From positions 1-60,280 of the forward strand of contig JACQAL010000041.1 in NCBI GenBank assembly GCA_016195025.1: a DNA stretch of 60,280 bases. Reading direction: 5' to 3'. The stretch's first letter is position 1, and each line of letters opens with the position of its first letter. Made by a program: the position numbers and the translations under genes. Source of the stretch: Bacteroidota bacterium (GTDB lineage Bacteria > Bacteroidota > Bacteroidia > Palsa-948). Under the pieces are notes generated by a model, which was not told the DNA's origin, did no database searches, and saw only the letters and a program-made list of their open reading frames with translations. Shown in pieces: positions 41,690 through 53,287 of the stretch.

Positions 41690-41803
41690 TTTCCCGCGAA
41701 ACGCGGTCGGGCTTTCCGCTTCAATCTTTGGCGTTTGTAATTCTGAACGAAGTGAAGAATCTATTTCGCCAAAGGATTTCCGCTGCAATCCCTAACGCAA
41801 ACA
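41690..41803. repeat. Mosaic of dispersed repeat words
   Basis: In the 162-nt gap between the polyprenyl synthase start and the rlmN stop: CGGGCTTTCCCGCGAAA, CGGTCGGGCTTTCCGCTTCAATC, TTCTGAACGAAGTGAAGAAT (41741-41760) and AAGGATTTCCGCTGCAATC with CCTAACGC. These resemble repetitive elements scattered in Bacteroidota genomes. No gene is seen here. Confidence 0.5.
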
Positions 41804-50449: not shown

Positions 50450-51403
50450 TTAGAAATCGTTTATCAATTGATTGGTCGCCTTCAGCAAAATCTCAAATGC
50501 ATTTTCTGCCATCAGGTTTTCTTTGTCGAGTGTAGGATTTATTTCCACCACTTCGAGGCAGCAAACTTTTTTGCTTCGCAGCAAATAATAAATAAGATTG
50601 CCTGCTTCTTTTTCGGTGAGTCCTCCCGGAACAGGAGTGCCGGTGCCTTTGGAAATTTCCGGATCCATTGCGTCTACATCAAAAGAAATATAAATCAAAT
50701 CGCAGGTATCAAGCGAAGCAAGCATGAGCGCAGCAACTCTTTCCACTCCGCGATTTCTAATTTCTGCAACAGAAGTATTTTTCACGCTGTGTTTCTTCAA
50801 AAGATATTCTTCCTGCCTTTCAAAGTCGCGGACAGAAACCATCACGATGTCTTCATAATGAGCCTTCGGAGAAATATTTCCAATGTGTTTTAATTTTTCC
50901 CACCACTGAATTGTTTCTTCATCGGGTTTGTTCACCTGCATTTCCTTGTTGTCTTCTCCGAGAATTGTTGCAATCGGCATTCCGTGCATATTGCCCGATG
51001 GAGTTGTGTAAGGCGAATGAATATCCGCGTGCGCGTCAATCCAGATGATGCCGAGTTTTTTTTCTGGGAACGCCATTTTAATTCCTGTTGTAACTCCGAT
51101 GGCAGAAGTGTGGTCGCCCGCGAGTACGATGGGAAATGTTCCTTCCTCTTTGCAAAATTCTGAAACTTGTTTTGCAAGGCGCTCGGTGAATGAATAAACT
51201 CCTTTTATTCTTTTCGCAAAATCATTTTCAACGGGCTCGAGCAGCAAGCGGTTCTCATTGGGAACTTCCACCGATTCGTGGCGCTTGAAAAAAGAACTTC
51301 CGAAATCAAGCGCAGCGGTTTTGATTGCATCAACGCCCAATCCTGCCCCGCGTGTGCCCGCACCGATTTCGGATTTTACTTCTATGAGTTTTATTTTTTT
51401 CAC
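50450..51403 (-). CDS. rocF: Arginase family protein
   Basis: 317-residue ureohydrolase, probably arginase converting arginine to ornithine and urea. The manganese ligands are seen in VLAGDHTSAIGVTTG, IWIDAHADIHSPYTTPSGNMHG and ISFDVDAMDPEISKGTGTPVPGG. The last motif ends in the usual GL(T)xxE context. Formiminoglutamase or agmatinase activity is possible, but the N-terminal KIKLIEVKSEIGAGTRG fits arginase. argS follows 16 nt later on the same strand, and arginine decarboxylase is divergent beyond the hairpin array. A TATATTTG box (51415-51408, minus) lies only 4 nt before the ATG, so the mRNA may be leaderless. Confidence 0.9.
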   Translation of the reverse strand: MKKIKLIEVKSEIGAGTRGAGLGVDAIKTAALDFGSSFFKRHESVEVPNENRLLLEPVENDFAKRIKGVYSFTERLAKQVSEFCKEEGTFPIVLAGDHTSAIGVTTGIKMAFPEKKLGIIWIDAHADIHSPYTTPSGNMHGMPIATILGEDNKEMQVNKPDEETIQWWEKLKHIGNISPKAHYEDIVMVSVRDFERQEEYLLKKHSVKNTSVAEIRNRGVERVAALMLASLDTCDLIYISFDVDAMDPEISKGTGTPVPGGLTEKEAGNLIYYLLRSKKVCCLEVVEINPTLDKENLMAENAFEILLKATNQLINDF

Positions 51404-51407
51404 TTGG

Positions 51408-51415
51408 CAAATATA
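51408..51415 (-). promoter_or_regulatory. -7 box very close to arginase start
   Basis: CAAATATA on the plus strand reads TATATTTG on the minus strand, 4 nt before the arginase ATG at 51403. No clear -33 element is seen. Confidence 0.35.
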
Positions 51416-51435
51416 ATTAAGAACTCACCCCCTTG

Positions 51436-51829
51436 CCCCCTCTCTTTTAAAAAGAGAGGGGGAATAATTTCTGATTTCATTATTCCCCGACCTAAAGGTC
51501 GGGGCTATTAACATTTCACTCTTACAGAGTGAAGAAAAAATCAGAGACAAAATTTTATGGCTCTGTTTTCCCGTAGGGAAAAATATTAATATCCCCGCGC
51601 TTCAGCGCGGGGATGAGAAATGCCACACACAATCTCCCCTCTCCTTTTTTAGGAGAGGGGTTGGGGGTGAGGTCTTGCGTGAGCGATTGAGCCTCCCGAT
51701 AGCTATCGGGATGTTTGAACTCTTTTTTGCGCTTCGCAAAAAAAGTGAGTGGCGAAAGCGCAACTGCGAGCTTCGCGCGGACACGCCCAAATCCGACTCA
51801 CTTACTTCATCAAAAAAAAGTTGAAGTAA
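51436..51829. repeat. Array of ten successive hairpins (repeat-element cluster)
   Basis: The 486-nt gap between arginase and arginine decarboxylase is filled by inverted repeats: 51436-51462 (12-bp stem, CCCCCTCTCTTT arm), 51485-51504 (CCCCGACCT arm), 51515-51533, 51566-51582 (TTTTCCC arm), 51591-51614 (ATCCCCGCGC arm), 51636-51660 (CCCCTCTCCT arm), 51694-51711 (perfect 18-bp palindrome), 51723-51743 (TTTTTTGCG arm), about 51752-51778, and 51802-51829. Most have perfect stems and 2-6 nt loops. No gene is seen. They look like separate small repetitive elements piled at one site. Confidence 0.85.
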
Positions 51830-51889
51830 ACCACTTACTTTGATAAATTATTAGCAACTTCGCGAACTTAAATTTTTGGAGAACATTTT

Positions 51890-53287
51890 ATGAAAAATAA
51901 ATATCGGGATTTGATTCAGCAAACATTTCACTTTCCGCAGGAGGGTTTCAATGTGGTTGACGGTGAACTGCATTTTTGCGATGTGCCGCTGATGGACATC
52001 ATCAAGCAATATGGCACGCCTCTTAAAATAACTTACCTGCCGAAAATCGGGCAGCAGATTCAGAAAGCAAAAAAACTTTTTAACGTGGCGATGGCGAAAG
52101 CGGATTACAAAGGAAGTTATACGTATTGCTACTGCACCAAGAGTTCGCATTTTTCTTTTGTGGTGGATGAAGTGCTGAAGAACGATGTGCACATTGAAAC
52201 TTCTTCCGCTTATGATATTCCGATTGTGAAAGAATTATATCGCCAGGGAAAGATTGACAAAAACACCTGGGTGGTTTGCAACGGATACAAACGTAAACCG
52301 TATCCGCAGTTTATTGTTGACCTGATTAATAACGGTTTCAAAAATGTAATTCCCGTTTTGGATAATAAAAGCGAATTAGAATATTACAAGCGCTATGTGA
52401 AAGGAAAATGTAATCTCGGAATCAGAATTGCTTCGGAAGAAGAACCGACCTATGATTATTATACTTCGCGTTTGGGAATCCGCTACAAAGAGATTGTTCC
52501 TTTTTATAAGGAAAGAATAAAAGGAAATAAAAAGTTGAAATTAAAAATGCTTCACTTCTTTGTGAGTGCGGGAATCAAGGATACAATTTATTACTGGACG
52601 GAACTTGCAAAATGTCTGAACGTGTATGCCGAGCTGAAAAGAATTTGTCCTGAACTCGATTCGCTGAACGTGGGCGGTGGTTTGCCAATCCGCACTTCGC
52701 TCGGCTTTGAATACGATTACGAGTACATCATCGAAGAAATTATTTCGCAGATAAAAACTTTCTGCAAGCAGAACAAAGTGAAAGAGCCGAACATCTTCAC
52801 CGAATTCGGTTCGTTCACCGTTGGCGAAAGCGGTGCCGCACTTTATTCCGTTGCCGACCAGAAACAGCAGAACGACCGCGAACTCTGGTATATGATTGAT
52901 TCGTCATTCATCACCACGCTTCCTGACACTTGGGGAATTAATCAGCGATTCATTTTACTTTCCGTGAATCACTGGGACAAAGAATATCAGCGCGTGAATC
53001 TCGGAGGATTGAGTTGTGATGGCTTGGATTATTACAACACCGAAGCGCACACCGAGCAAATTTTTCTTCCGAAGATTGGTCACGGAAGCGATGGTCCTTT
53101 ATATATAGGATTCTTTCACACGGGCGCTTACCAGGAATCGCTCGCTGGCTATGGCGGAATTCAGCATTGCCTCATTCCATCACCCAAACACGTTTTGATA
53201 GACCGCGATGAGAACGGAGAAATCACCACAAAACTTTTTGCGAAGGAGCAAACATTTAAATCAATGCTGAAGACGCTGGGATATTGA
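51890..53287 (+). CDS. speA: Biosynthetic arginine decarboxylase, Bacteroidota type
   Basis: 465-residue PLP-dependent (fold III) decarboxylase converting arginine to agmatine for polyamine synthesis. The PLP lysine is in YCYCTKSSHFSF (Lys about 84). HIETSSAYDIPIV, the glycine loop LNVGGGLPIR and the C-terminal SCDGLDYYN, HTGAYQESLAGYGGIQHC follow in group IV decarboxylase order. It is about 190 residues shorter than E. coli SpeA and lacks its long insert, as is usual in this phylum. It is divergent from arginase-argS across the hairpin array, and both enzymes draw on arginine. The ATG at 51890 follows an AT-rich leader. Confidence 0.9.
   Translation: MKNKYRDLIQQTFHFPQEGFNVVDGELHFCDVPLMDIIKQYGTPLKITYLPKIGQQIQKAKKLFNVAMAKADYKGSYTYCYCTKSSHFSFVVDEVLKNDVHIETSSAYDIPIVKELYRQGKIDKNTWVVCNGYKRKPYPQFIVDLINNGFKNVIPVLDNKSELEYYKRYVKGKCNLGIRIASEEEPTYDYYTSRLGIRYKEIVPFYKERIKGNKKLKLKMLHFFVSAGIKDTIYYWTELAKCLNVYAELKRICPELDSLNVGGGLPIRTSLGFEYDYEYIIEEIISQIKTFCKQNKVKEPNIFTEFGSFTVGESGAALYSVADQKQQNDRELWYMIDSSFITTLPDTWGINQRFILLSVNHWDKEYQRVNLGGLSCDGLDYYNTEAHTEQIFLPKIGHGSDGPLYIGFFHTGAYQESLAGYGGIQHCLIPSPKHVLIDRDENGEITTKLFAKEQTFKSMLKTLGY

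Follow-up and report, generated by a model that had tools for sequence, protein, structure and literature searches.

Among the closest described systems are the REP and REPIN repeats associated with the class-2 TnpA-REP transposases (RAYTs), of which the E. coli TnpA-REP processes single-stranded REPs in vitro (PMC8266576). Another group of HUH Y1 transposases, TnpA-Y1 subclass 1.2, was described in 2018 as generally lacking the typical terminal structures of IS200 (PMC6006769). Two Rfam families are also relevant to the locus considered here, Acido-Lenti-1 (RF01687) and Flavo-1 (RF01705), both described in 2010 without a function. Acido-Lenti-1 was listed as a candidate RNA of Acidobacteria and Lentisphaerae (PMC2864571), and a regulatory role was recently proposed for it near Tannerella protease genes (PMC13298647). 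Flavo-1 has been ranked with the small-RNA families of highest abundance (PMC9029176). No function was assigned to either family in the later papers found, and a literature search of limited coverage returned no report of Flavo-1 as a repeat or of REPs belonging to subclass 1.2.

The hairpin block and its insertion site

The window analysed, a stretch of 60,280 nucleotides, is contig 41 of a draft genome of 3.5 Mb; uncultured groundwater Bacteroidota are the closest relatives that bear a name. It carries a divergent gene pair that is kept across the class, composed of an arginase gene (50450–51403, minus strand; TIGR01229 at 225.9 bits, with a cut-off of 227.6) and a gene for an arginine-decarboxylase-like PLP enzyme (51890–53287, plus strand; NF003763 and TIGR01273, both below their cut-offs). 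The gap between these genes (51404–51889) contains 9 perfect inverted repeats with a stem of at least 8 and a loop of at most 12, or 11 with a stem of at least 7, while 200 dinucleotide shuffles gave expectations of 0.17 and 0.57 and maxima of 2 and 5, respectively. The whole window holds 38 hairpins of the former kind, so that 9/38 fall within 0.8% of its length, and the gap folds far better than its shuffles on both strands (z of –11.3 and –9.5). The cluster of ten hairpins reported by the earlier note at 51436–51829 is thus real and correctly placed. However, it does not consist of ten separate units, since the hairpin at 51802–51829 belongs to a conserved promoter/operator core and is not a repeat, and the others form a composite of fixed order.

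This core (51791–51866, plus strand), which lies outside the element, contains the direct repeats CACTTACTT 33 nt apart and, with these ACTTAC repeats, was aligned in 6/6 same-genus genomes; the hairpin at 51802–51829 belongs to the core and not to the element. ACTTAC motifs like those of the core also recur in other families. In five of the six same-genus species, the gene pair is separated by a gap of 261–292 bp that is free of element hairpins, and in the sixth genome neither an element nor an arginase match was found in the aligned upstream stretch. Since the block is missing at this site in the six same-genus species, it represents a lineage-specific insertion between the arginase gene and the core. 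The gaps of sister species (L043–L048) present different repeat-like tracts, rich in AT, of the TTCGTAA/TTACGAAT and GATTACAC/GTGTAATC types.

Architecture of the composite element and its copies

In the composite element, which extends from 51422 to 51790, a three-hairpin unit is present twice in opposite orientations, and a Flavo-1-like module comes after this pair. The unit comprises a CTCACCCC hairpin (F1), a 20-nt palindrome (A), the linker CTATTAATATT and a 17–19-nt palindrome (B). In the left unit, the outer module is the F1 hairpin GAACTCACCCCC..CCCCCTCTCTTTT/AAAAGAGAGGGGG (51422–51462, plus strand), followed by palindrome A1, CCCCGACCT-AA-AGGTCGGGG (51485–51504, plus), whose 9-bp stem and 2-nt loop share the geometry of clade-A transposase flanks, by the linker CTATTAACAT (51505–51514, plus), kept up to single-base changes in 23 collected units, and by palindrome B1, TTCACTCT-TAC-AGAGTGAA (51515–51533, plus), which has the 8+3 geometry of clade-B transposase flanks and is compensated in other copies. 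The right unit is inverted, its A-linker-B part (51567–51613, minus) containing B2 (TTTTCCCGTAGGGAAAA, 51571–51587, minus) and A2 (CCCCGCGCTTCAGCGCGGGG, 51593–51612, minus), with an inverted F1 copy, GACCTCACCCCCAACCCCTCTCCT..AGGAGAGGGG (51632–51675, minus), as its outer hairpin. After reverse complementation, the right unit aligns with the left one over some 96 nt, with a score of 82 (shuffle maximum 29), and the A-linker-B stems of the collected units covary at A pairs 6–8 and B pairs 3, 5 and 6. The Flavo-1-like module (51675–51790, plus), which reads TTGCGTGAGCGATTGAGCC, hairpin, GTGGCGAAAGC, hairpin, ACACGCCCA, is present in an interrupted, variant form, with the 18-nt palindrome F3 (TCCCGATAGCTATCGGGA, 51694–51711, no strand assigned) inserted in it. 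About 12 exact copies of F3 occur elsewhere in the same genome, the corresponding site in the sibling copies C18, L329 and L336 reads GAGCCATTTGTTTGA, and F3 clearly entered the right-hand module of the window later.

When the gap was compared by BLASTN with its own genome, about 70 matches were obtained, corresponding to F1, the A-type 20-nt palindromes, F3 and the longer right-hand module. The hairpins are therefore repeated and REP-like, as had been proposed, and not each unique in the genome. F1, formed by CTCACCCC plus the CCCCTCTCC hairpin, has about 20 or more copies there, and the right-hand module was found in C16, C40, C18 and C42. The own genome has 4 occurrences of the A1 pattern CCMCGACCTNNAGGTCGKGG, same-genus genomes have up to 16 and G050 has 21, and the reversed control had none. 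In the same-genus genome G005, where copies were located with a pattern of 16 nt taken at the A1/linker junction, seven distinct loci present the order A1, CTATTAATATT, B1, spacer, B2, AATATTAATAG, A2, spacer and right-hand module, with most of A2 lost in one of them (L335). The own copy C16 shows the same order, and C40, C18 and C42 are partial.

An F1-type hairpin is placed to the left of A1, at a distance of about 20 nt, in 9/9 composite copies by eye and in 8/9 by pattern. The window and L329 also carry an inverted F1 to the right of A2, and L333 has Flavo-1 on both sides of the core, in inverted orientation. The possibility that F1a was a random late insertion was rejected: since the spacer matches the left unit of C16 and L329 carries F1a at the same place, it corresponds to a mirrored module. 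The inverted unit pair, F1' and the two-sided Flavo-1 of L333 together give a concentric organization, (Flavo-1') F1 A B .. B' A' (F1') Flavo-1. The composite has terminal inverted repeats, as in MITEs; no target-site duplication was obvious, and the sister gaps are too diverged left of the core for comparison. As in canonical REPs and REPINs, inverted pairs with transposase-free copies are present, and the A palindromes of G050 are paired in inverted orientation, with TTGGCTTTAGCC hairpins on the inner side, resembling a transposase locus of which only the ends are left. The low copy number of the composite in its own genome counts against the explanation favoured below.

F1 hairpins were also observed in frame inside protein genes of the own genome (L022, L007, L008, L011, L019 and L041), and about half of the own F1 copies examined lie in ORFs. 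In a UDP-glucuronate decarboxylase (..NIAHL[LPSPLGEGLGVRS]FQFIEHD..), the F1 stretch is an insertion relative to the solved UXS1, and a ferrochelatase with an in-frame F1 reads ..VAEKY[LTPNPSPKTGEG]RWDFFVFSYHGLPER. In one relative, G031, an F1 family is strongly amplified, with CTCACCCCNNNCCCTCTCC present in 99 exact copies.

Subclass 1.2 transposases and the two Rfam families

A search for a RAYT or IS200-like TnpA gene, suggested by the earlier note, revealed three Y1 transposase genes in the own genome, all small, low-copy and carrying the Y---Q--HH motif of subclass 1.2, so that a transposase was indeed present, although of an unexpected type, and no class-2 TnpA-REP gene was found among the three. 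The subclass 1.2 enzyme scored 73.7 bits with the NCBIfam IS200 family model, over its cut-off, and 34.3 with REP_Tyr_transpos, below the cut-off. One of the own genes (L002) has CCCCGACATAAATGTCGGGG, of the A family, on both flanks and F3 downstream. Across the class, a palindrome was found within 300 nt of 42/56 subclass 1.2 genes and on both sides of 22/56, versus 12/51 and 0/51 in controls. Bracketing by genome-recurring palindromes, as in REPtron-like loci, thus occurs at subclass 1.2 genes; 14/56 have no palindrome within 300 nt, which counts against the explanation favoured below. These palindromes are of two types, A, with a 9-bp stem and a 2-nt loop, and B, with a 7–8 bp stem and a 3-nt loop, and the type tracks the deepest split of the TnpA tree (support 100/98; 0/500 shuffles).

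A covariance model of the A-linker-B unit, termed R1, was built in the present analysis. It gave 59 matches, many of them partial, in the 185 kb around the 56 subclass 1.2 genes, at 33 of them, versus a total of 8 in 1.16 Mb of controls. Of these 8, a single one came from the 238 kb of control loci, which are richer in coding sequence, and 7, one of them at a TnpA flank, came from a 0.8-Mb sample of stretches of the own genome; the 120 kb around 32 other Y1 loci gave none. The latter two sets address in part the coding richness of the control loci. The R1 scores of the window, 54.6 bits for the left unit and 44.8 bits for the right one, are not independent, because both units are in the training set.

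The A-linker-B unit, assigned in the left copy (51485–51531, plus) from R1 and from an Rfam alignment of its siblings, matches Acido-Lenti-1 over the full length, with the same two-hairpin architecture and GGCTA linker. The gathering threshold of 37 was not reached in the own genome, where the inverted right unit of the window scored 22 bits and the sibling C40 35.5. Above this threshold, Acido-Lenti-1 was detected in 20/198 Bacteroidota genomes, with copies of up to 57 bits, and 4/30 of its loci lie within 1.5 kb of a subclass 1.2 gene versus 0/80 controls. In L463, units of 49.9 and 42.8 bits are placed, inverted, on both sides of the subclass 1.2 TnpA gene. The hairpin types of the block also flank TnpA genes, which in some genomes have a whole A-B unit at either side. 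At TnpA loci such as L463 these units face outward, with B outside, and in the composite they face inward; owing to this reversed orientation, a simple TnpA-deleted locus is not supported for the composite. In G426 and G381, Acido-Lenti-1 forms same-orientation pairs 400–950 bp apart with no transposase between them.

Regarding Flavo-1, the module of the window is degenerate, which counts against the explanation favoured below, and it scored 13 bits with RF01705, below the gathering threshold of 42, while the right-hand modules of sibling copies, at the same position, scored 50–64 bits, and that of L338 39.8. A second copy in the window (41701–41803, minus) is intact and, at 53 bits, over gathering. 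The constancy of the outer module and the position of one Flavo-1 copy (L354, in G020), some 175 nt away from a gene of subclass 1.2, suggest, more weakly than for Acido-Lenti-1, a link to subclass 1.2 TnpA. Flavo-1 was also considered as the REP of class-2 RAYTs and discarded in this role, because the RAYT gene of L371 has its own GTAG REPs and Flavo-1 was present in 2/20 loci (L371 and L375). This RAYT gene (L371:1403–2038, in G005) contains two GTAG REPs inside its reading frame, and a Flavo-1 copy directly follows it. Other Rfam matches of the gap (JA03, HgcC and miRNAs) were below gathering and were taken as chance.

Origin of the block and comparison with known systems

The block has a fixed architecture, repeated copies and compensatory changes, and it is absent from sister species. 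These features point to an inserted composite passenger that was probably moved by TnpA. Its inverted hairpin pairs are nested as F1 - A - B ... B' - A' - F1', Flavo-1 lies to the right of them, and its A and B hairpins are members of TnpA-flanking families. Subclass 1.2 TnpA would recognise the folded A and B hairpins on single-stranded DNA, for example on the lagging strand, and would cut and rejoin them, spreading transposase-free copies as proposed for REPINs; such a mechanism would be likely because both hairpins belong to families that flank HUH transposases. By analogy with the E. coli TnpA-REP (PMC8266576), the A/B hairpins may be the substrates that subclass 1.2 TnpA moves, F1 and Flavo-1 would travel with the A-B units, and the insertion would do nothing selected at the arginase/decarboxylase site. 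The earlier proposal of REP-type units plus a transposase was essentially right, in that the palindromes are repeated and their relatives flank transposase genes, including the own three, but the enzyme is not a class-2 RAYT and the units compose one nested element.

It is unlikely that another HUH or DDE transposase moved the composite, with the shared hairpins as recruited targets. No TnpA gene was found near any composite copy, which also counts against TnpA as the mover, no transposase accompanies F1 here, and its GGGGTGAG fits the GGGGWSAS shared by the terminal repeats of Y1 transposases (Di Nocera et al., PMC3733652); however, subclass 1.2 genes show a strong concentration of A-B units and A/B palindromes, which the other Y1 loci tested do not. 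The accumulation of independent REP-type units, piled up singly at an insertion hot spot as the earlier note had suggested, is quite improbable. Several families are involved, some also occurring singly elsewhere, F3 is a later entry, and the sister-species gaps have their own repeat-like tracts. Nevertheless, the same modules, order and mirror symmetry are shared by about nine loci, so independent accumulation at one spot could not have produced them, and this reading is contradicted for the core, holding only for F3 and perhaps the F1 pair. A multi-hairpin regulatory RNA or leader for arginase and/or the decarboxylase (attenuator, antisense or sponge) is very improbable, since its very stable folding, its site between divergent arginine genes and the resemblance of two modules to Rfam 'sRNA' families (Flavo-1 and Acido-Lenti-1) are outweighed by evidence favouring mobile DNA: the block is missing in 6/6 sister species examined that keep the promoter core, unrelated genes adjoin other copies, folding is alike on both strands, and Flavo-1 matches in F. 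psychrophilum, reported to lie indistinctly on the sense or the antisense strand of transcribed regions and in many cases outside them (PMC9723704), are more compatible with DNA than with an RNA gene.

The one of the two 'RNA' families that flanks the genes of a distinctive single-strand transposase group is probably mobile DNA. On balance, the case is even for Acido-Lenti-1 being the terminal unit of a subclass 1.2 REPtron-like system and, less surely, Flavo-1 a co-travelling outer module, both as mobile DNA and not RNA genes, and combined in this genus into mirrored, concentric composites. If they were transposase-borne DNA hairpins, small-RNA and regulatory annotations would need revision, and an HUH enzyme group without a known substrate would gain a specific, testable one. 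HUH-associated hairpin repeats are a known kind of element, the passenger reading makes a concrete proposal for an orphan RNA family, and the hairpin association of subclass 1.2 extends REP-type systems beyond class-2 RAYTs.

Compared with Acido-Lenti-1, the A-linker-B unit has the same succession of a 46-nt A hairpin, a GGCTA.. linker and a B hairpin, but the listed RNA candidate (PMC2864571) here looks like a terminal unit of a transposase locus. Flavo-1 corresponds to the right-hand module of the sibling composites, whereas the window copy is interrupted, variant and built into a larger composite. F1 copies in frame inside genes recall the Rickettsia palindromic elements and intragenic REPs, although these belong to another sequence family and phylum. 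As in REP/REPIN systems with RAYTs, the hairpins are short, often in inverted pairs and mostly intergenic, they flank a low-copy HUH Y1 gene, and transposase-free dimers occur elsewhere, as in the inverted pairs of 65–140 bp in G050. However, the A/B hairpins are perfect palindromes of set geometry (9+2 and 7-8+3) without a consistent GT[AG]G foot, that of the A hairpin being mostly CTATT/AATAG, with TAGTAG only in C16_2 and L336_2, and the enzyme is of subclass 1.2 and not a class-2 RAYT. Finally, the own Y1 genes agree with the described TnpA-Y1 subclass 1.2 in motif, small size and low copy number, but while that study found these genes generally without terminal structures (PMC6006769), most of those examined here have flanking palindromes.
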